A DNA stretch of 45,267 nt from NCBI GenBank assembly GCA_001464625.1, contig LNFJ01000141.1, positions 1-45,267 of the forward strand. The letters are read 5' to 3'. A program made the translations under genes and the position numbers. Position 1 is the stretch's first letter, and every line of letters starts with the position of its first letter. The notes beneath the pieces are model-generated. The model had not been told where the DNA came from and did no database searches. It saw only the letters and a list, made by a program, of their open reading frames with translations. Origin of the DNA: Bacteroidia bacterium Ga0077558 (GTDB lineage Bacteria > Bacteroidota > Bacteroidia > Chitinophagales > Chitinophagaceae). This document shows positions 18,574 to 27,919 of the stretch, in pieces.

Positions 18574-20256
18574 GTGACCACATTTCAAGATCTCGGGATT
18601 GAAGAAGGGCTCTTACAATCCATCAATATTTTGGGTTTTACCCAACCTACACCCATCCAGGAAAAAGCAATCCCCGTTTTATTACAAGGAACAAAGGACT
18701 TTATTGGTCTTGCCCAAACCGGTACTGGTAAAACGGCTGCTTTCGGACTGCCTTTATTACAACTGATAAATAAAGAAGACCGTTTTCCGCAAGCTTTGAT
18801 AGTTTGCCCAACCAGAGAACTTTGTTTGCAAATAACCAGCGACCTGGAGAAATTCAAGAGCAAAAAAATAAATATCAGTGTTACGGCTGTATATGGTGGT
18901 ACTTCCATTACTATGCAAATCCGGGATCTGAAAAGAGGCACTCACATTGTAGTGGCTACCCCCGGCCGTTTAATCGATCTTATCGAAAGAAAAGCGATCA
19001 ACCTCGAAAAGATACATTATGTAGTTTTGGATGAGGCAGATGAAATGCTTAACATGGGTTTTAAAGATGATATTGAATTCATCTTAAAAAATACTCCCAA
19101 CCGTCAGAGCACCTGGTTATTCAGTGCTACTATGCCTGCAGAAATAAGAAATGTGAGCAAGAAGTACATGGATAAACCTTTTGAAATTACAATCGGCAAA
19201 ACAAATGAAGGAGCAGCTAATATTGATCATCAGTATTATGCTACCCAACATCATAACAGATACGAAGTATTAAAAAGAATTATCGATTTTAATCCCGGCA
19301 TCTATGGAATTGTATTTGCCAGAACTAAAGCCGACACACAAGACATTGCGGAAAAGTTAACAAGGGAAGGTTATGATATTGATGCCATACATGGTGACTT
19401 AACGCAACAGCAGCGGGATAAAGTGATGGGATTGTTTAGAGATAAAAGTGTGAAGTTGCTCGTTGCAACCGATGTTGCAGCAAGAGGTATCGATGTAAAA
19501 GGCATTACACATGTAATTAATTACGAGTTACCGGATGATGTAGAAGTGTACACACATAGAAGTGGTCGTACTGGCCGTGCAGGTAGTAGTGGGGTTTCTG
19601 TTTCAATCGTTACACCAAAAGAAGTGTATCGTTTACGCCAGGTAGAACGAATAGTGAAGACGCAATTTCATAAAATGGATATTCCAAGCGGTAAAGATGT
19701 TTGCCGTAAACAGTTTTTCCATTTTATCGATAAAATGCTAAGTGCAGATATCAGTCATGGTGAATACGAAGCATACCTGCCTACACTAAGAGAAAAATTT
19801 GCAGAAGTTGAAAAAGAAGAAATATTACAAAGAGTTGCTGCATTAGAGTTTGATCGGTTTTTGAAGTATTACGAAAATGCCGCTGATCTTAATATGAGAG
19901 GTAGCGACAGAAGAGATGATAGAAGAGGGGATAGAACTGAAAGAGGAGCTCCAAGAGAAAGAGACAGGGATACAAAAGGAAGAAGCTTTAGCGGCGGTGG
20001 TAATTACCAACGCTTGTTTGTAAACCTTGGAACCAAAGATGGTTTTTACAAAGCAAGTTTTTTACAGTTCATACTAGATATGAGTGATTTGAAAAAGGAA
20101 GTGCTGGGTCGTATTGATATGAAGGAAATGACCAGCTGGATAGAGATTGACCCAACGGCTGGTAAGAAAATGATAAAAGCAATCGATGGTAAAAACTATC
20201 GGGGTCGTAAGATTCGCATGAATGATGCAGAGTCTGGCGGCGGCAGAGGAAAATAA
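18574..20256 (+). CDS. DEAD-box RNA helicase, DbpA/DeaD type
   Basis: This 560-residue ATP-dependent RNA helicase starts at GTG. Motifs in order: Q motif FTQPTPIQEKAIP, Walker A AQTGTGKTAA, PTRELCLQ, TPGRLIDL, DEAD in VLDEADEMLNMGF, SAT in WLFSATMP, IVFARTK, ATDVAARGIDVKGITHVINYELP and HRSGRTGRAG. A charged Arg/Asp-rich linker (about 440-475) precedes a DbpA-type RNA-binding domain (RLFVNLGTKDGFYKASFLQFI to GRKIRMNDAES). Such proteins remodel rRNA during ribosome assembly or at low temperature. It lies directly upstream of the aromatic operon promoter. Confidence 0.93.
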   Translation: MTTFQDLGIEEGLLQSINILGFTQPTPIQEKAIPVLLQGTKDFIGLAQTGTGKTAAFGLPLLQLINKEDRFPQALIVCPTRELCLQITSDLEKFKSKKINISVTAVYGGTSITMQIRDLKRGTHIVVATPGRLIDLIERKAINLEKIHYVVLDEADEMLNMGFKDDIEFILKNTPNRQSTWLFSATMPAEIRNVSKKYMDKPFEITIGKTNEGAANIDHQYYATQHHNRYEVLKRIIDFNPGIYGIVFARTKADTQDIAEKLTREGYDIDAIHGDLTQQQRDKVMGLFRDKSVKLLVATDVAARGIDVKGITHVINYELPDDVEVYTHRSGRTGRAGSSGVSVSIVTPKEVYRLRQVERIVKTQFHKMDIPSGKDVCRKQFFHFIDKMLSADISHGEYEAYLPTLREKFAEVEKEEILQRVAALEFDRFLKYYENAADLNMRGSDRRDDRRGDRTERGAPRERDRDTKGRSFSGGGNYQRLFVNLGTKDGFYKASFLQFILDMSDLKKEVLGRIDMKEMTSWIEIDPTAGKKMIKAIDGKNYRGRKIRMNDAESGGGRGK

Positions 20257-20269
20257 AAAAGATTAAAAG

Positions 20270-20300
20270 TTTGATTTACTAATCAGGACAACTATATTTG
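20270..20300 (+). promoter_or_regulatory. Promoter of the aromatic amino acid operon
   Basis: TTTG (20270-20273), a 19-base spacer and TATATTTG (20293-20300) match the Bacteroidota consensus TTTG-N19-21-TAnnTTTG exactly. It begins 14 bases after the helicase stop codon. The expected transcription start, a few bases after 20300, falls at or next to the leader ATG at 20307. Confidence 0.75.
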
Positions 20301-20306
20301 TTCAGG

Positions 20307-20393
20307 ATGACAACAACAAACACATATTTTGGTTTCTATTTTTATTACTTCTTTAATAAGAGGCCGGGAATGCTTTTGTTGAAAACAAACTAG
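20307..20393 (+). CDS. Phe/Tyr-rich leader peptide of the aromatic operon attenuator
   Basis: This is a 28-codon ORF starting MTTTNT, then YFGFYFYYFF at codons 7-16, and ending at TAG. Nine of ten consecutive residues are Phe or Tyr, the two end products of the operon. It lies between an excellent promoter and a strong terminator and is followed by pheA. This is the arrangement of pheA-type leader peptides in other bacteria, where ribosome stalling on Phe (or here also Tyr) codons prevents termination. Codons 19-21 contain the anti-terminator segment (20362-20369). The peptide itself has no expected function. Confidence 0.8.
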   Translation: MTTTNTYFGFYFYYFFNKRPGMLLLKTN

Positions 20394-20449
20394 AACAACT
20401 AAAAATCAACATAAAGAATCCCGGTCAGATCGACCGGGATTCTTGTTTT
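20362..20449 (+). terminator. Attenuator: anti-terminator segment and rho-independent terminator
   Basis: The terminator stem is 13 perfect base pairs (20414-20426 with 20432-20444, 5-base loop) followed by GTTTT. Its left arm, bases 20419-20426 (TCCCGGTC), is also complementary to GGCCGGGA at 20362-20369 in the leader ORF (8 pairs, one G-U). The two pairings exclude each other, as required for attenuation. The pheA ATG follows at 20456. Confidence 0.82.
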
Positions 20450-20455
20450 AATACT

Positions 20456-21283
20456 ATGACTAAGATTTCAATACAGGGTTATGAAGGCAGCTTTCACCAG
20501 GTGGCAGCACAACTATTTTTTGGAAAAGGAGTGGAAGTAATTACCTGCAACACATTTAAAGAAGTAGTAAAGATTGCCGGCAATAAAAAAGCAAGCGATG
20601 GTGGTATAATGGCAATTGAAAACTCTATTGCGGGAAGTATTTTACCAAACTATAATTTGCTGCAGAAAAGTAATTTAAAAATTGTCGGAGAAATTTATTT
20701 GCAGATACGACAAAATCTGCTGGTAAATCCTGGCGTAAAATTAGAGGATATCCGGGAAGTGCATTCGCATACCATGGCATTGCAGCAGTGCTATGATTTT
20801 TTAGATAAACATAAATGGAAACTGGTTGAAAAAGATGACACGGCGTTGAGTGCAAAACATATTCACCAGCATAAGAGCAAACATATTGCAGCCATTGCGA
20901 GTAAGTTGGCCGCAGAATTGTATAACCTGGATATGATCGCCCCGAATATCCAAACCATGAAAAATAATTACACAAGATTTTTGGTATTGCAACGGGAAGA
21001 TGCGGCGAAACCAGTTGAAGAAGCGAATAAAGCATCGGTTAACTTTCATACCGACCATTCAAAAGGAAGTTTGGCAAAAGTGTTGACAGCGATTGCAGCG
21101 GGTGGAATTAATTTAAGCAAGTTGCAAAGCTTTCCAATACCGGGCAGTGATTTTAAATACAGCTTTCATGCAGATATGGAGTTTGATTCATTAGAGCAGT
21201 TCAATGATGTAATTGCTCAAATGAAAAAACTAACAGCGGAAACAAAAATTTACGGCGTTTATAAAAAAGGAATTTGGAAATGA
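20456..21283 (+). CDS. pheA: Prephenate dehydratase
   Basis: This 275-residue enzyme converts prephenate to phenylpyruvate, committing flux to phenylalanine. The periplasmic-binding-protein-like catalytic domain has YEGSFHQVAAQLFFG, MAIENSIAGSILPNYNLL and YNLDMIAPNIQTMKNNYTRFLVL (the TRF motif with the catalytic Thr). A C-terminal ACT domain starts near residue 195 (SLAKVLTAIAAGGINLSKLQSFPIPG), the usual site of feedback inhibition by Phe. It has no chorismate mutase domain; that activity is fused to the DAHP synthase two genes later. It overlaps the aminotransferase gene by 4 bases (ATGA). Confidence 0.95.
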   Translation: MTKISIQGYEGSFHQVAAQLFFGKGVEVITCNTFKEVVKIAGNKKASDGGIMAIENSIAGSILPNYNLLQKSNLKIVGEIYLQIRQNLLVNPGVKLEDIREVHSHTMALQQCYDFLDKHKWKLVEKDDTALSAKHIHQHKSKHIAAIASKLAAELYNLDMIAPNIQTMKNNYTRFLVLQREDAAKPVEEANKASVNFHTDHSKGSLAKVLTAIAAGGINLSKLQSFPIPGSDFKYSFHADMEFDSLEQFNDVIAQMKKLTAETKIYGVYKKGIWK

Positions 21284-22428
21284 GAACAAGCAAACGATTA
21301 GAAGGTATCGGCGAATATTATTTCTCCCAGAAATTGAGAGAAATAGAAGAATTAAATAAAGTTGGAAAGCATATTATCAATTTGGGTATTGGTAGTCCGG
21401 ATCTGCCGCCGCATCCGGAGGTAATAAAAACATTGCAGGATGAAAGTGCTAAAACAAATGTACATGCTTACCAATCATACAAAGGTTCGGCGATCTTAAG
21501 AAAAGCTATCAGCGAATGGTACAGAAAATGGTATCGGGTTGAATTAGATGGAGATTCAGAAATATTACCATTGATTGGAAGCAAAGAAGGAATTATGCAT
21601 ATCTGCATGACTTATTTAGATAAGGGCGATGCAGTATTGGTGCCCAATCCAGGTTATCCAACGTATAGAAGTGCAGTAAAGTTGGCTGGTGGAAAATGTA
21701 TAGAATATAAATTAAGAGATAAAAACAATTATCATCCCGATTTTGAAAAGTTGTCAAAAAGCAAACTAAAGAAAGTAAAACTGATGTTTGTAAATTATCC
21801 ACAGATGCCAACAGGCCAATTATCAACAACAGTATTGTTTGAGAAACTGGTGGCATTTGGGAAAAAGCATAATATTCTTATCGTTCATGATAATCCGTAT
21901 TCTTTTATTTTAAATGAGCAGCCACAAAGTCTGCTAAGTGTTGAAGGAGCAAAAGATTGTGTGATTGAATTGAACTCATTAAGCAAAAGTCATAATATGG
22001 CAGGCTGGAGAGTTGGAATGTTGTGTGGCGCAAAAGAAAGAATTGAAGAAGTATTGCGTTTTAAAAGCAATATGGATAGTGGAATGTTTTTGCCGGCACA
22101 ACTGGCTGCAGCAAAAGCATTAAGTCTTGGTAAGGAATGGCATGATGAAGTAAATACAATTTACAGGGCAAGACGGGAAAAAGTATTTGAATTGCTGGAA
22201 TTATTGAACTGTAAATTTTCGAAAGAGCAGGTAGGTATGTTTGTGTGGGCAAGGGTGCCAGCTTCCTACAAAGATGGATATGTGTTAAGTGATGAAGTAT
22301 TGTACAAGTCGAATGTGTTTATAACACCGGGAGGAATTTTTGGATCCGCCGGAGATAAATATATCAGGGTAAGTTTATGTGCGCCAGTGGAGAAATTTGA
22401 AGAGGCAATTCAGAGAATAAAAAACTAA
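21280..22428 (+). CDS. PLP-dependent aminotransferase (likely aromatic)
   Basis: This is a fold type I aminotransferase of class I/II, 382 residues from the ATG that overlaps the pheA stop. The PLP lysine lies in ELNSLSKSHNMAGWRVGM. INLGIGSPDLPPHPEV, NPGYPTYRSAVKLAGG and YIRVSLCAP near the C-terminus are further hallmarks. Its place between pheA and tyrA implies the final transamination of phenylpyruvate and hydroxyphenylpyruvate, though LL-diaminopimelate aminotransferase-like relatives look similar. The TTG two codons upstream is a less likely start. Confidence 0.88.
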   Translation: MRTSKRLEGIGEYYFSQKLREIEELNKVGKHIINLGIGSPDLPPHPEVIKTLQDESAKTNVHAYQSYKGSAILRKAISEWYRKWYRVELDGDSEILPLIGSKEGIMHICMTYLDKGDAVLVPNPGYPTYRSAVKLAGGKCIEYKLRDKNNYHPDFEKLSKSKLKKVKLMFVNYPQMPTGQLSTTVLFEKLVAFGKKHNILIVHDNPYSFILNEQPQSLLSVEGAKDCVIELNSLSKSHNMAGWRVGMLCGAKERIEEVLRFKSNMDSGMFLPAQLAAAKALSLGKEWHDEVNTIYRARREKVFELLELLNCKFSKEQVGMFVWARVPASYKDGYVLSDEVLYKSNVFITPGGIFGSAGDKYIRVSLCAPVEKFEEAIQRIKN

Positions 22429-22432
22429 TACT

Positions 22433-23284
22433 ATGTCACAAAGAAAAAGAGTTGCTATTGTTGGTATAGGGTTGATTGGCGGTTCATTGGCCATTCAACT
22501 GCATGAAAAAAAACTCTCCTCCAAATTGATTGGTGTAGATGACAACGAAGAACATGCAAGACAGGCAGTTGAATTGGAATTAGTGGATGAAACAATGCCA
22601 TTGAATGATGCTATTGAACAGTCAGATGTAATCGTTCTTGCCATACCGGTTGATAAATTAGTAAGCCTGTTGCCATCCATTATGGATAAAATTGATCAGC
22701 AAATTGTTGTTGATCTTGGTTCTACAAAAAGTCAATTGGTAGACGTAATAAAAAGCCATCCTAAAAGGAGGAGATATGTAGCCACGCATCCGATGTGGGG
22801 AACCGAGTATAGCGGTCCGCAATCGGCAGTGCGTGGTGCCTATGAAAACAAAGCAGTAATTATTTGCAACGCAGAAGATAGTGACGCCGATGCATTGGAT
22901 TGGGTAAAGAATATGTACAAAAAAATTGGCATGCACTTATTGGAAATGGAAGCAAAAGCACATGACCTGCATGCGGCTTATGTCAGTCATATTTCACATA
23001 TCACATCATTTGCATTAGCTAATACGGTATTGGAAAAAGAGAAAGAAGAGAATGCCATTTTTGAATTAGCCTCTGCTGGTTTTGAAAGTACCGTAAGATT
23101 AGCAAAAAGTAATCCTGCAATGTGGGTGCCGATATTTATGCAGAACAAAGAAAATGTGCTGGATGTTTTGAAAGAGCATATCGCACAACTATCAAGATTT
23201 AAAGAGAGTATAGAGAAAGAGGATAACGAATATTTAATGAAGTTGATTGAAAATGCGAATAAGATTCGCAGAATAATTAAATAA
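22433..23284 (+). CDS. tyrA: Prephenate dehydrogenase
   Basis: This 283-residue NAD(P)-dependent enzyme forms 4-hydroxyphenylpyruvate from prephenate, the branch to tyrosine. The Rossmann loop is VAIVGIGLIGGSLAIQL, with an acidic residue after the second strand (GVDDNEEHA) suggesting NAD. VDLGSTKSQLVDVI, THPMWGTEYSGPQSA and HAAYVSHISHITSFALANTV carry the catalytic and substrate-binding histidines. It has no ACT domain. It starts 4 bases after the aminotransferase gene. Confidence 0.94.
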   Translation: MSQRKRVAIVGIGLIGGSLAIQLHEKKLSSKLIGVDDNEEHARQAVELELVDETMPLNDAIEQSDVIVLAIPVDKLVSLLPSIMDKIDQQIVVDLGSTKSQLVDVIKSHPKRRRYVATHPMWGTEYSGPQSAVRGAYENKAVIICNAEDSDADALDWVKNMYKKIGMHLLEMEAKAHDLHAAYVSHISHITSFALANTVLEKEKEENAIFELASAGFESTVRLAKSNPAMWVPIFMQNKENVLDVLKEHIAQLSRFKESIEKEDNEYLMKLIENANKIRRIIK

Positions 23285-23290
23285 AACAGG

Positions 23291-23363
23291 GTTGATGACC
23301 AATGGACAGAACCCTGAAGTGTGCGACGCAACGAAGATGCTATGAAAAACAAAAGCTGGGAAC
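23291..23363 (+). repeat. Dispersed intergenic repeat, family R1, copy B
   Basis: It lies 6 bases after the tyrA stop, inside the aromatic operon. TGCGACGCAACGAAGATG is identical to copy C at 42491-42561, and the flanking GACAGAAC and AGCTGG-AAC blocks are shared too. Confidence 0.7.
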
Positions 23364-23390
23364 ATAATAATTAACTTTACAACATAAATT

Positions 23391-24479
23391 ATGCAAATAA
23401 CAGAGCAAGCAACAAACGAAACAGTGCAACAAGCATGGGGTAAACGTCCATTAATCATTAGTGGGCCATGCAGTGCAGAAACAGAAGAACAATTAGTAGC
23501 AACTGCGCAACGATTAGCAGCAACAGGAAAAGTAAATATGCTGCGGGCCGGAATTTGGAAACCAAGAACAAAACCTGGCATGTTTGAAGGTGTTGGAGCA
23601 AAAGGATTGCCCTGGTTGCAGCAAGCAAAAAAGTTAACTGGGCTTCCAACAACAGTGGAAGTAGCTACCGGCAAACAAGTACAGGATGCATTGACATTTG
23701 ATGTGGACGTTTTATGGATCGGCGCAAGAACAACGGTGAATCCATTTAGTGTGCAGGAAGTAGCCGATGCATTGCGGGGAACGAATATTCCGGTGATGAT
23801 AAAAAATCCGATCAATCCTGATCTGGAATTGTGGGCAGGTGCAGTAGAAAGAATAGCAAGAGCTGGAGTAAAACAAATTGGTTTGATACATCGGGGTTTT
23901 AGTTCGTATGGTAATACCGAATTTCGCAATGCACCGATGTGGCATCTGGCCATTGAAATGAAATTGAAATATCCAGAACTGGTTTTTATTAATGACCCTT
24001 CACATATTTGCGGCCGCCGTGATATTTTATTGGATACGATGCAAAAAGCGATCGACCTTGATTATGATGGATTGATGATCGAAAGCCATATAGACCCCGA
24101 CAATGCCTGGAGCGATGCAAAACAACAGGTAACACCTGAAAGGTTGGCTGAAATGCTCGATACAATTATTTGGAGAAAAGAAGATATTAGTTCAGAAGAA
24201 TATCATGCGGCGTTAGAGAAATTGCGTCAGCAAATAAATCAGTTGGATGATGAGTTGATGCAGATATTAAGTCAGCGGATGAAAATCGCTGAACAAATTG
24301 GTACCTATAAAAAGGAGAACAACATTACTATTTTACAAATCAATCGCTGGAATGAAATAATAGAAAGAGCAACAGCAAAAGGGGACAAAATTGGATTGAG
24401 CAAAGAATTCATCACTAAATATTTTGATGCGGTGCATATGGAAAGCATTAATCATCAGAAGAAGGTATTGGACTCTTGA
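23391..24479 (+). CDS. Bifunctional DAHP synthase / chorismate mutase
   Basis: This 362-residue fusion catalyses the first shikimate-pathway step and the chorismate-to-prephenate step. The N-terminal DAHP synthase (KDPG-aldolase-like type I beta) spans about residues 1-260, with ISGPCSAETEEQL, WKPRTKPGMFEGVG, MIKNPINPDLELW, IHRGFSSYG and NDPSHICGRRD. The C-terminal AroQ-type helical chorismate mutase spans about 270-360, with LRQQINQLDDELMQILSQRMKIAEQIGTYKK. In such fusions the mutase domain often mediates feedback inhibition by prephenate. The symbol is left open (aroF/aroG/aroA are all used). The 3' end overlaps a repeat motif. Confidence 0.94.
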   Translation: MQITEQATNETVQQAWGKRPLIISGPCSAETEEQLVATAQRLAATGKVNMLRAGIWKPRTKPGMFEGVGAKGLPWLQQAKKLTGLPTTVEVATGKQVQDALTFDVDVLWIGARTTVNPFSVQEVADALRGTNIPVMIKNPINPDLELWAGAVERIARAGVKQIGLIHRGFSSYGNTEFRNAPMWHLAIEMKLKYPELVFINDPSHICGRRDILLDTMQKAIDLDYDGLMIESHIDPDNAWSDAKQQVTPERLAEMLDTIIWRKEDISSEEYHAALEKLRQQINQLDDELMQILSQRMKIAEQIGTYKKENNITILQINRWNEIIERATAKGDKIGLSKEFITKYFDAVHMESINHQKKVLDS

Positions 24480-24551
24480 GTCGGGAGCTCGTAGTCCAGA
24501 GAACTAAATTCAAAGCGTCTTTGCTCCTTTGCGACTTTGCGAGAAAAAACA
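24470..24551. repeat. Short repetitive segments between the DAHP synthase gene and aroB
   Basis: A GACTCTTGAGTCGGGAG motif (24470-24500), related to those in aroA (26276-26303) and mutS (3490-3524), is followed by CTTTGC-type heptamer repeats (24518-24543). The latter resemble the CTTTGCGACTTTGCGAG intergenic sequence common in many bacterial genomes. Confidence 0.5.
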
Positions 24552-24555
24552 AAAC

Positions 24556-25575
24556 ATGACAAAACAAACTTTTAAATTTTCAACAGCATCTACCGAAATA
24601 CACTTTGCTGCTGGCATTAGTCATCTTAAAAAGATAACTGACCCAAAAGCAACCGTGTTGATAACTGATGAAAATGTTTTCAAGGCTCATACCAAGCGTT
24701 TCAAAGGTTGGAACACTATTGTACTAAAACCCGGTGAAGAATATAAAGTACAGGCAACTGTAGATGCAATCATCGAAAAGCTGATCGAAATGGAAGCCGA
24801 TCGCAAAACAACTTTAGTTGGTGTAGGTGGTGGCGTTGTAACAGATATTACAGGTTATGTTGCTTCTGTTTATATGCGGGGCATTCGGTTTGGATTTTTG
24901 CCAACTTCTATTTTGGGATTAGTTGATGCATCCATTGGCGGAAAGAACGGAATAGATGTGGGTGTTTACAAAAACATGGTAGGAATTATCCGTCAACCAG
25001 CATTTATTTTACATGATATGGTTTTCCTTAATTCATTGCCGCAGCGGGAATGGGAAAATGGTTTTGCAGAAGTGATAAAACATGCTTGTATAAAAGATGC
25101 GGCGATGTTTGCAGCATTGGAAAATAGTTCGCTGAAAGCATATCAAAGCAGACAAAAATCGATCTGCGATTTGATACAACGAAATACGTTGATAAAAACA
25201 AAAGTAGTGCAGAAAGATGAATTTGAAAAAGGAGATAGAAGGTTGTTGAACTTTGGTCACACATTAGGGCATGCATTAGAAACGCAATATGAATTATTAC
25301 ACGGCCAGGCTATTTCCATCGGCATGACTTATGCCTGTCATATTTCAGAGAAGTTGACTGGATTTAAACAGACAGAAAAAGTTGTGGCCCTTTTAGAAAA
25401 GTATAATCTTCCTAATTATGTGTCATTCGACAAACAAAAAGTGTTTGAAATATTGAAGATGGATAAGAAAAGGGAAAGAAAAGAAATGAACTATGTGTTG
25501 CTGGAGAAAATAGGAAAGGGAGTGGTAAAGAGTATTTCGTTGAAACAATTAGAAAAAATCATTCAAGAATTTTAA
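24556..25575 (+). CDS. aroB: 3-dehydroquinate synthase
   Basis: AroB cyclises DAHP to 3-dehydroquinate using NAD and a divalent metal. The chosen ATG gives 339 residues starting MTKQTFKF; the upstream TTG lies in repeat DNA. Motifs: GVGGGVVTDITGYVASVYMRG (NAD binding), PTSILGLVDASIGGKNGID, GFAEVIKHACI (metal-binding Glu), RRLLNFGHTLGHALE (metal-binding His) and HGQAISIGM. aroA starts 2 bases after its stop. Confidence 0.95.
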   Translation: MTKQTFKFSTASTEIHFAAGISHLKKITDPKATVLITDENVFKAHTKRFKGWNTIVLKPGEEYKVQATVDAIIEKLIEMEADRKTTLVGVGGGVVTDITGYVASVYMRGIRFGFLPTSILGLVDASIGGKNGIDVGVYKNMVGIIRQPAFILHDMVFLNSLPQREWENGFAEVIKHACIKDAAMFAALENSSLKAYQSRQKSICDLIQRNTLIKTKVVQKDEFEKGDRRLLNFGHTLGHALETQYELLHGQAISIGMTYACHISEKLTGFKQTEKVVALLEKYNLPNYVSFDKQKVFEILKMDKKRERKEMNYVLLEKIGKGVVKSISLKQLEKIIQEF

Positions 25576-25577
25576 TA

Positions 25578-26912
25578 GTGAAAGTAACAATACATCCGTC
25601 CAGGTTAAAAGGAACAGTTCAGGCACCAGCATCTAAAAGTTCCATGCAAAGAGCTTTGGCAGCAGCATTGTTAAGAAATGGTGAAACGGTTATTCGCAAT
25701 CCCGGTCACTCAAATGATGACAAAGCAGCAATTCGAATCATTAAAGCATTAGGAGCAGAGGTGGCAAATAATGGTGATGAATTAATAATTAATAGTGCAG
25801 GAGTTAATCCAATCGAAAATGAAATTAATTGCGTCGAATCAGGATTGAGTATTAGAATGTTCACCCCACTTGTAGCTTTAAGCGATAAAGAAATTACAAT
25901 CAACGGCTCTGGTAGTCTTGTATCAAGACCAATGGATTTCTTTGATGAAATATTGCCACAGCTTGGAGTTAAGATCAAAAGTAATGATGGCAAATTACCA
26001 ATGACTATTCAAGGCCCATTGGTACCAAAGAATATAGAAGTAGATGGTTCATTAAGTTCGCAATTTCTAACGGGATTATTGATGGCTTATGCAGCCTCCC
26101 CAAACCCCTCCGAAGGAGGGGCTTTAGACTCCGAGAGATTAAGTGTTTCTATAAAGGTTCGTAATCTCAAAAGCAAGCCTTACATAGACCTTACTTTGGA
26201 TGTAATGAAGAAGTTCGGGTTAAGAGTTCCAGAGAATAGAAACTATGAAGAATTTATATTCTCTAACGACTTTATTCCGGACTCCGGACTCCCGACTTCC
26301 GACTACACAGTAGAAGGTGACTGGAGTGGCGGCGCATTCTTATTAGTTGCAGGTGCGACCGCTGGTCCGATAACAGTTCGTGGATTAGATATGTCATCAA
26401 CACAAGCCGATAAAGCGATCGTTGATGCATTAATGGCAGCCAACGCAGGTATTGCAATGGAAGCAAAAGGAATTCAATTGCATCCTACAGCAATGAATGC
26501 TTTTTATTTTGATGCAACGGATTGTCCGGATTTATTTCCTCCATTAGTAGCTTTGGCTGCATATTGCAAGGGCAAAACAATTATTAAAGGAGTAAGCCGT
26601 TTAACACATAAAGAAAGTAATAGAGCAATCACATTGCAGGATGAATTTGATAAAATGGGAGTGACGATAGATCTGGAAGATGATGAAATGATCGTTCACG
26701 GAGGTGGTATCGTAAAAGGTGCTGATGTTCATTCTCATCATGATCATCGCATTGCAATGGCTTGTGCTGTTGCTGCATTAAAGGCAACGGATGAAACGGT
26801 GATTGAAGAAGCACAGGCGATAAGAAAATCATATCCTGATTTTTATAATGATTTGAAATCTTTGGGTGCAGCTGTATCTTTACCTTTCAACCCTGAAAGT
26901 TTAATTAATTAA
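25578..26912 (+). CDS. aroA: 3-phosphoshikimate 1-carboxyvinyltransferase (EPSP synthase)
   Basis: AroA joins phosphoenolpyruvate to shikimate-3-phosphate. The 444-residue protein starts at GTG, 2 bases after aroB. ASKSSMQRALAAALL carries the substrate-binding Lys-Ser, ESGLSIRMFTPL and DGSLSSQFLTGLLMAYA follow, with ATDCPDLFPPLVALAAYCKG, HKESNRA and DHRIAMACAVAALKA near the C-terminus. Two stretches look inserted in frame from dispersed repeats: about residues 173-183 (a palindrome at 26095-26125) and about 234-243 (26276-26303). Both lie in loop regions between conserved motifs, so the enzyme is probably active. Confidence 0.94.
   Translation: MKVTIHPSRLKGTVQAPASKSSMQRALAAALLRNGETVIRNPGHSNDDKAAIRIIKALGAEVANNGDELIINSAGVNPIENEINCVESGLSIRMFTPLVALSDKEITINGSGSLVSRPMDFFDEILPQLGVKIKSNDGKLPMTIQGPLVPKNIEVDGSLSSQFLTGLLMAYAASPNPSEGGALDSERLSVSIKVRNLKSKPYIDLTLDVMKKFGLRVPENRNYEEFIFSNDFIPDSGLPTSDYTVEGDWSGGAFLLVAGATAGPITVRGLDMSSTQADKAIVDALMAANAGIAMEAKGIQLHPTAMNAFYFDATDCPDLFPPLVALAAYCKGKTIIKGVSRLTHKESNRAITLQDEFDKMGVTIDLEDDEMIVHGGGIVKGADVHSHHDHRIAMACAVAALKATDETVIEEAQAIRKSYPDFYNDLKSLGAAVSLPFNPESLIN
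26095..26125. repeat. Palindromic repeat inserted in frame in aroA
   Basis: CCCCTCC-GAA-GGAGGGG (26105-26121) is preceded by CCTCCCCAAA. It belongs to the C-rich palindromes common between genes in Bacteroidota, yet here it is translated (ASPNPSEGGAL). Confidence 0.65.
26276..26303. repeat. GACTCCxGAC-type repeat inside aroA
   Basis: The block GGACTCCGGACTCCCGACTT and the bases after it consist of degenerate GACTCC units and are translated as SGLPTSD. Similar units occur in mutS (3490-3524) and after the DAHP synthase gene. Confidence 0.5.
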
Positions 26913-26926
26913 CCAATTAATATACT

Positions 26927-27919
26927 TTGAATTCATTTGGTCGCATATTTCGCATTTCTATTTTTGGAGAATCGCATGGTGAATGTGTAGGTATTACTAT
27001 TGATGGTTGTCCTGCAGGTTTGTCGTTAATTCCGGAAGATCTATTACCCGATTTGGAAAGAAGAAAAGGTGGCAAGCAAAAAGGTACAACACCTCGTCAA
27101 GAAGAAGACTTCCCGATTTTTAAAAGTGGAATCTTCAATGGCAAAACAACAGGCTTTCCCATCACTATCTTATTCGACAATAAAAATACACGCAGCGAAG
27201 ACTATAATAAGCAACGAAGTATTCCTCGTCCCGGTCATGCAGATTGGGTAGCACATCAAAAATTTGGTGGCAATGAAGATTACAGGGGTGGCGGTCATTT
27301 TAGTGCGAGGTTAACAACCGGGATTGTTGCAGCAGGTGCTATCGCAAAGAAATTAATTGATGAAATTAGCATTCATGCCGAGGTAATAGAAATAGCCGGA
27401 GAAAAAGATTTAGAAAAAGGATTACAAAAAGCCATCGATGCAAAAGATTCAGTGGGCGGAATTATTGAATGTCGGGTAAGTGGTTTACCAGTTGGATTAG
27501 GAGAACCCTATTTCGATTCTATTGAATCAATGTTATCACATATACTCTTTGCAATCCCTGCAGTAAAAGGTGTTGAGTTCGGAGCAGGTTTCGCCGCCGC
27601 AAAAATGTTTGGCAGCCAGCACAACGATGCAATTGAAAATAGGGAAGGCAAAACAAGAACGAATCATGCAGGCGGGATTGTTGGCGGCATTAGCAATGGC
27701 AACGAATTAGTTTTTCGCTTAGCCGTAAAACCTACCTCATCCACACCAAAAGAACAGAACAGTTTAAATTGGGAAACGGGTAAGACAGAAAATTTTTCTA
27801 TCAAAGGCCGACACGACTTATGTGTAGCACTAAGAGCACCAGTAATTGTAGAAGCAGTAACTGCATTGGTGCTAGCCGACTTTATGTTATTAGAACAAAA
27901 AATAAAAAGAATACAATAA
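26927..27919 (+). CDS. aroC: Chorismate synthase
   Basis: AroC makes chorismate from EPSP with reduced FMN. The protein is 330 residues and starts at TTG (MNSFGRIFRISIFGESHG); no in-frame ATG fits. Both catalytic histidines are present, in FGESHGECVG and in IKGRHDLCVALRAPVI. PRPGHADWVAHQKFGGNEDYRGGGHFSARLT is the FMN-binding region. It is shorter than E. coli AroC (361 residues, as I recall), with the missing parts in loops. Its stop overlaps the next ATG by one base (TAATG). Confidence 0.94.
   Translation: MNSFGRIFRISIFGESHGECVGITIDGCPAGLSLIPEDLLPDLERRKGGKQKGTTPRQEEDFPIFKSGIFNGKTTGFPITILFDNKNTRSEDYNKQRSIPRPGHADWVAHQKFGGNEDYRGGGHFSARLTTGIVAAGAIAKKLIDEISIHAEVIEIAGEKDLEKGLQKAIDAKDSVGGIIECRVSGLPVGLGEPYFDSIESMLSHILFAIPAVKGVEFGAGFAAAKMFGSQHNDAIENREGKTRTNHAGGIVGGISNGNELVFRLAVKPTSSTPKEQNSLNWETGKTENFSIKGRHDLCVALRAPVIVEAVTALVLADFMLLEQKIKRIQ

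Follow-up and report, generated by a model that had tools for sequence, protein, structure and literature searches.

A predicted Phe/Tyr leader-peptide attenuator at the aromatic amino acid gene cluster of a member of the Chitinophagaceae

In the pheA (pheL) and trp attenuators of E. coli, the first gene is preceded by a short open reading frame (ORF) that carries the control codons, by helices that exclude one another and by an intrinsic terminator. The Rfam family Bacteroid-trp (RF01692) is linked to trp genes and leader peptides. This family is listed in Table 1 of PMC2864571, and the E. coli pheA and trp attenuators are named in PMC11802643, where the AroR leader that precedes the aroF operon of C. 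glutamicum is also described, after Neshat 2014. For B. thetaiotaomicron, the operon pheA > hisHb > aroAI-aroQ > tyrA was given in 2005 with a putative attenuator taken from a prediction database (PMC1173090 Table 7); in the accessible text of that paper the word "leader" does not occur, and the B. thetaiotaomicron entry is given without a leader peptide. In Flavobacterium psychrophilum and other Flavobacteriaceae, a structured and transcribed 5' element of pheA with no Rfam match was reported in 2021 (PMC9723704); the same paragraph names leader-peptide attenuation for amino acid operons and, in the text available, does not state that pheA is such a case. In the accessible parts of these four papers and of PMC4833913, PMC7366714, PMC8079986 and PMC2965389, no Phe/Tyr leader peptide was found described for an aromatic operon of the Bacteroidota, subscription journals lying mostly outside the scope of the search.

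The window considered here is the whole 45,267-nt stretch of DNA that was analysed. According to our data, the short leader of its pheA gene is very probably an attenuator of the trp/pheA type, in which a ribosome controls transcription, with termination, stalling and the amino acids sensed all inferred from the sequence.

Anatomy of the leader and of the genes behind it

All the parts of the leader lie on the forward strand. A predicted Bacteroidota-type promoter, with TTTG at 20270-20273, a 19-nt spacer and the box TATATTTG at 20293-20300 (consensus according to PMC7366714), ends 6 nt 5' of the AUG of an ORF of 28 codons plus stop (20307-20393), whose product MTTTNTYFGFYFYYFFNKRPGMLLLKTN was defined from its translation and from its relatives. 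Codons 7-16 (20325-20354) read YFGFYFYYFF, so that nine out of ten of these control codons are aromatic, and their reading is frame-specific in relatives. In the window this Phe/Tyr leader is unique on both strands among ORFs of 10-50 codons with at least 8/10 Phe/Tyr, and no such ORF arose in 25 dinucleotide-shuffled windows. The leader region also folds more stably than its shuffled versions (z = -6.83 against 200 shuffles).

The leader is predicted to hold the full classical set of 1:2, 2:3 and 3:4 helices, formed by regions 1 to 4. In the protector hairpin 1:2 (20314-20381), predicted by folding, the 5' arm takes in codons 3-7 and some of the aromatic codons, and the 3' arm is the antiterminator 5' arm. 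The antiterminator joins region 2 (20362-20382), within the leader ORF, to region 3 (20406-20426), which overlaps the terminator 5' arm; folding, coevolution and covariation all point to this helix of 19 pairs, with an 8-base core formed by GGCCGGGA (20362-20369) and TCCCGGTC (20419-20426). The predicted intrinsic terminator (20414-20449), supported by folding and covariation, has a 13-bp stem (20414-20426/20432-20444), a 5-nt loop and a short tail, GTTTT (20445-20449), and 11 nt separate its stem from the pheA ATG. The sequence-only reading had already placed the ORF, the control codons, the terminator and the 8-base complement, all of them correctly to the base on recheck; the promoter and the protector helix are additional to the parts that it listed. 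The 8-bp antiterminator which it proposed does exist as a complement, being only the core of the longer helix, and the "22 bases" that it gave between stop codon and antiterminator were wrong, since the 5' arm ends (20382) 8 nt before the stop codon (20391-20393) and the 3' arm begins 12 nt after it.

In the Bacteroidota, translation of most genes does not use a Shine-Dalgarno site. A TAnnTTTG box ending 0-14 nt 5' of the leader start was found in 105/132 family leaders (94 of them at 4-8 nt), in 3/40 leaders from other families and at 104/2604 other ATGs, a comparison which favours the box because for each leader the in-frame start lying furthest upstream near a -7 box was taken and the background ATGs had no such freedom. 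Thus, the family leader is probably nearly leaderless, with a very short 5' UTR and a transcript start a few bases before the AUG. Leaderless mRNAs account for 5.5% in F. psychrophilum and, according to PMC7366714, 5' UTRs shorter than 10 nt for about 3.7% in B. thetaiotaomicron; as such mRNAs are scarce in these two species, a very short leader 5' UTR would be unusual. Leaderless leader peptides have been described in Streptomyces lividans (PMC8079986). If true, a near-leaderless start would explain how ribosome and RNA polymerase are coupled in time for attenuation in Bacteroidota.

Seven aromatic genes follow on the same strand: pheA, the first structural gene, encoding prephenate dehydratase (20456-21283; PF00800, 7e-58), a class I/II aminotransferase gene (21274-22428; PF00155), tyrA for prephenate dehydrogenase (22433-23284; NF006307 over cut-off), a DAHP synthase-chorismate mutase fusion (23391-24479; PF00793 and PF01817), aroB for 3-dehydroquinate synthase (24529-25575; TIGR01357 over cut-off), aroA for EPSP synthase (25578-26912; TIGR01356 over cut-off) and aroC for chorismate synthase (26927-27919; TIGR00033 over cut-off). 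Terminator-like sites on the forward strand from 20450 to 27919 are all within these genes and none lies between them, and the cluster is regarded as a putative co-transcribed operon. The idea of a whole aromatic operon under the attenuator would apply to these seven genes, and "whole" is loose, because aroD, aroE and aroK were not among the ten proteins typed at the cluster. A DAHP synthase match lies 3' of pheA in all 17 leader-bearing loci for which longer sequence was at hand.

Distribution of the leader and coevolution of its helices

Relatives were chosen by the presence of PheA, blind to the leader, and a leader was scored when an ORF with at least 6/10 aromatic codons was found upstream of pheA, a criterion that 7/198 reverse-strand controls also pass. 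In the genus, PheA is present in 21/42 genomes and the leader in 20 of these 21; the exception (G012) has no leader, and just pheA and the aminotransferase gene out of the seven were found in its 15-kb stretch. In the other 21 genomes of the genus PheA was not matched; 17 of them are of 2.1 Mb or less, a sign that a lineage with reduced genomes may be auxotrophic for aromatic amino acids. In the family, PheA is present in 169/244 genomes, from which 94, mostly one per genus, were sampled together with 20 further genomes of the genus; one genome has two PheA, giving 115 upstream regions. A leader precedes pheA in 111 of these, and four have none by the criterion. In a partly overlapping set of named relatives, all Chitinophagaceae (the best 80 of 225 loci, including Terrimonas, Niastella, Filimonas, Lacibacter, Puia and Flavihumibacter), an aromatic ORF lies upstream in every case. 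The predicted design of the leader is well supported by this comparison with many relatives.

PheA was found in 52/198 genomes of the class survey and in 172/198 of the phylum survey, and from both we drew 66 of the 70 PheA genomes of the class outside the family. The leader is present in 47 of these 66 regions, covering 13 out of 22 families, and absent by the criterion from 19; it is missing from all six regions of one family (f13) and present in three of six of another (f16). The 6/10 threshold scores three loci (L142, L146 and L221) as having no leader, although a short aromatic ORF with 5/10 is present in each. Among all the loci compared, one genome (G190) has two PheA copies (L216 and L217) with a leader before only one of them. 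Outside the class, the leader was found in 3 of 17 regions, which were our own selection from 127 PheA-bearing genomes and included the closest PheA matches. These three leader-pheA loci (L163 in G607, L164 in G488 and L264 in G529) may reflect transfer of the operon together with its leader; the PheA of G607 is 62% identical to that of the window. A terminator follows the leader in 105/111 cases in the family, 37/47 in the rest of the class and 3/3 outside it, 145/161 in total, and was not found by the script in the other 16.

The helices were compared in 172 distinct leaders with terminators, 132 from the family and 40 others (three of them from outside the class), obtained from 278 loci after removal of 37 without leader, 26 without detected terminator and 43 duplicates. 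The mean energy of the 2:3 pairing was -20.5 kcal/mol for native partners, -12.6 for partners swapped across families and -8.3 for shuffled ones. The native pairing was better than the mean swap in 168/172 leaders, than the shuffled mean in 172/172 and than every sampled swap (up to 25) in 89/172; swapped pairings are strong because a CCGGG core is common to many families. The exact CCGGG string is absent from 25/132 family leaders, at least one of which (L021) has a matching change in the terminator. Helix 1:2 was better with native than with swapped partners in 116/132 family leaders and in 20/40 from other families, which supports it in the family and gives it no support elsewhere.

Covariation was assessed in 112 family leaders, after a similarity and spacing filter. 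Double changes in the 2:3 helix occur at 15/19 pairs, in 78 cells, as compared with a mean of 43 and a maximum of 56 in 300 shuffles, which ignore relatedness, and with 18-59 when the partner was slid by 1-3 columns. For 3:4 there are 66 cells (mean 24 and maximum 36 in the same kind of shuffles; 7-30 when slid). For both helices, double changes and paired cells exceed all 300 shuffles and all slid versions. The antiterminator is predicted to exclude the terminator, and its two arms, regions 2 and 3, coevolve. Orthologous leaders with aromatic codons and the alternative stem, which the sequence-only reading had called for, were found in the family and in the other class families noted above, and its proposal of an attenuator is largely upheld by the anatomy, the conservation and the coevolving 2:3 and 3:4 pairings.

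Proposed mechanism and alternative explanations

Transcription would begin a few bases 5' of the leader AUG, and a ribosome would load immediately. When charged Phe- or Tyr-tRNA is scarce, the ribosome would stall in codons 7-16 and mask region 1, so that the 2:3 antiterminator could form before region 4 is transcribed and RNA polymerase would continue into pheA and on through the rest of the aromatic cluster. When charged tRNA is ample, the ribosome would proceed through region 2 toward the stop codon; with region 2 occupied, region 3 would be free to pair with region 4 and transcription would end near 20449. If there is no translation, helix 1:2 would form first and sequester region 2, and the terminator would follow. 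Ordinary ribosome masking may suffice for this, because the antiterminator 5' arm is inside the ORF and reaches nearly to the stop codon.

Masked folding, which finds minimum-energy structures and takes no account of kinetics, gave for RNA without a ribosome a minimum with 1:2 up to 20420, with 2:3 for 3' ends at 20425-20436, and, from 20440 on, with 1:2 plus the terminator. A ribosome placed on codons 9-14 abolishes or weakens helix 1:2, and 2:3 then forms at 20425-20436. A ribosome placed within region 2 allows the terminator alone, and one at the stop codon leaves room for 6-8 pairs of the 2:3 helix before the terminator is complete. The complete terminator is the most stable state at every ribosome position tested. 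Since this is so, and since 2:3 is the minimum at 20425-20436 even without a ribosome, the switch would have to be kinetic, depending on whether 1:2 or 2:3 has already formed.

An attenuator which in practice senses a single amino acid, either Phe or whichever charged tRNA drops first, is the strongest alternative, and we consider it unlikely, albeit deserving of attention. The C. glutamicum AroR leader has Phe-Tyr-Phe codons and yet is described as responding to Phe, not to Tyr (PMC11802643), and in the family leaders Phe codons outnumber Tyr codons (766 against 489). However, all 132 family leaders have at least two Tyr and at least two Phe codons, 39/40 of the others have at least two Tyr codons, and the operon makes both Phe and Tyr. 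Trp codons are found in 21/132 family leaders and 17/40 others. In the last ten codons of the run, 1138/1320 codons of the family leaders are aromatic in frame 0, and the two remaining frames give 312 and 417, the frame-0 count being inflated because leaders were picked as the most aromatic upstream ORF. The contrast between TTT/TTC (700 run codons in the family leaders) and TTG (one) or TTA (none) is less affected by this choice. The aromatic run is kept in a single frame, with the third base free between T and C and Leu codons nearly absent.

It is very improbable that the hairpin acts instead by blocking initiation at the pheA start codon, with no premature termination. Its position 11 nt before the ATG would allow this, and in 64/132 family leaders the stem is at most 30 nt from the start of the PheA match, but in 54/132 this gap exceeds 60 nt, with a maximum of 191, and a T-rich tail comes directly after the stem; such blocking of the ribosome-binding site was disfavoured on account of this variable distance. 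We give still less credit to a reading in which the hairpin does no more than terminate the DEAD-box helicase gene upstream, with the ORF as a chance T-rich stretch. That gene reaches to 20256, and in 66 of 178 loci compared a helicase homologue is found within 1.5 kb; however, the predicted promoter stands between the gene and the hairpin, leaders also occur at loci for which no such homologue was found, and a chance ORF would agree neither with the coevolution of its pairing with the terminator nor with its frame-specific codon choice.

That the product of the ORF is a small protein with a function of its own, and not a sensor peptide, seems scarcely tenable. Its C-terminal KRPGMLLLK appears conserved in near relatives, but elsewhere among the relatives a different frame is used for the same RNA (KPGSFC followed by the stop, or SSRVVFAKA), and for this reason it was dropped as a conserved peptide. 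Moreover, CCGGG occurs in all three frames inside the ORF of the family leaders (86, 4 and 16) and once beyond the stop; therefore it is the RNA, and not the peptide end, that is conserved. A T-box or ligand-binding riboswitch, for which the position 5' of a biosynthetic operon is the sole point, can be dismissed with similar confidence: no Rfam model, T-box and riboswitches included, matches the window at gathering score, and among the sub-threshold matches, Phe_leader and six others of unrelated families, the best by E-value in 20200-20500 is Phe_leader (RF01859; 26.2 bits, E 0.019, gathering cut-off 55).

Other amino acid leaders and comparison with known systems

Other leaders were observed in the genome of the window. 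About 0.2 kb 5' of a trpE domain match (L299, G000:C72) lies a near-leaderless ORF encoding VIKHTNNIWWWHTTLRGL, with WWW codons and a terminator that pairs with the ORF end; a W-rich leader is present at 18 of the 20 trpE loci of the genus (17 with WWW and one with WRW; 17 detected by script and L315 from its printed sequence) and was not found at L306 and L317. An ORF 5' of hisG (L300, G000:C143), encoding MTTYTHNYHHFLLPKSRP and accompanied by a TACTTTTG box and a terminator, is likely to be a His attenuator. An ORF ending in IASVATIIIVVVIIISSNGGGA, about 1.2 kb 5' of an ilvD domain match (L301, G000:C163) and with a terminator complementary to the ORF end, is likely to be an Ile/Val attenuator. 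The His and Ile/Val leaders were observed in this genome, in which no convincing leader was found 5' of two HMGL-like and two homoserine dehydrogenase matches. It is conceivable, with a chance a little short of even, that nearly leaderless attenuators for Phe/Tyr, Trp, His and Ile/Val form a set in this family; in each, the ribosome would start at the RNA 5' end and the final part of the leader ORF would contain the antiterminator. The aromatic one would have been retained in much of the class as a shared shikimate-pathway sensor, with Trp codons added in some lineages.

Bacteroid-trp resembles the leader of the window in being a cis-regulatory RNA of Bacteroidetes, and it was found neither in the window at gathering score nor in any of 19 genomes, namely the window's own and 18 relatives. 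The B. thetaiotaomicron operon is of the same class, with pheA first and a predicted terminator/antiterminator switch. The pheA element of the Flavobacteriaceae belongs to another family, and the leader was compared with it by description alone. As in the E. coli pheA and trp attenuators, there is an ORF with control codons, exclusive helices and a terminator before the first gene; in contrast to them, the leader is mixed Phe/Tyr, carries an antiterminator arm inside the ORF and is probably nearly leaderless, and the cluster is longer and includes DAHP synthase. AroR shares the Phe/Tyr codons and an operon with DAHP synthase, and its ribosome stalling is proposed likewise here; however, it belongs to another phylum, with Phe-Tyr-Phe codons and a response described as Phe-only, whereas the leader of the window has a run of nine aromatic codons.

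The alignments obtained here could found an Rfam family and serve to annotate pheA leaders across the class. The locus offers a well-supported and testable attenuator in a phylum for which the literature we found, as far as its text was accessible, holds just predictions and transcript hints. The attenuation design itself is already known, and in the accessible accounts attenuation of this operon had been predicted in B. thetaiotaomicron (PMC1173090) and a pheA element noted in Flavobacteriaceae (PMC9723704); to these, the present analysis adds the leader peptide itself, the coevolution of its helices, its breadth among relatives and its probable near-leaderless start.
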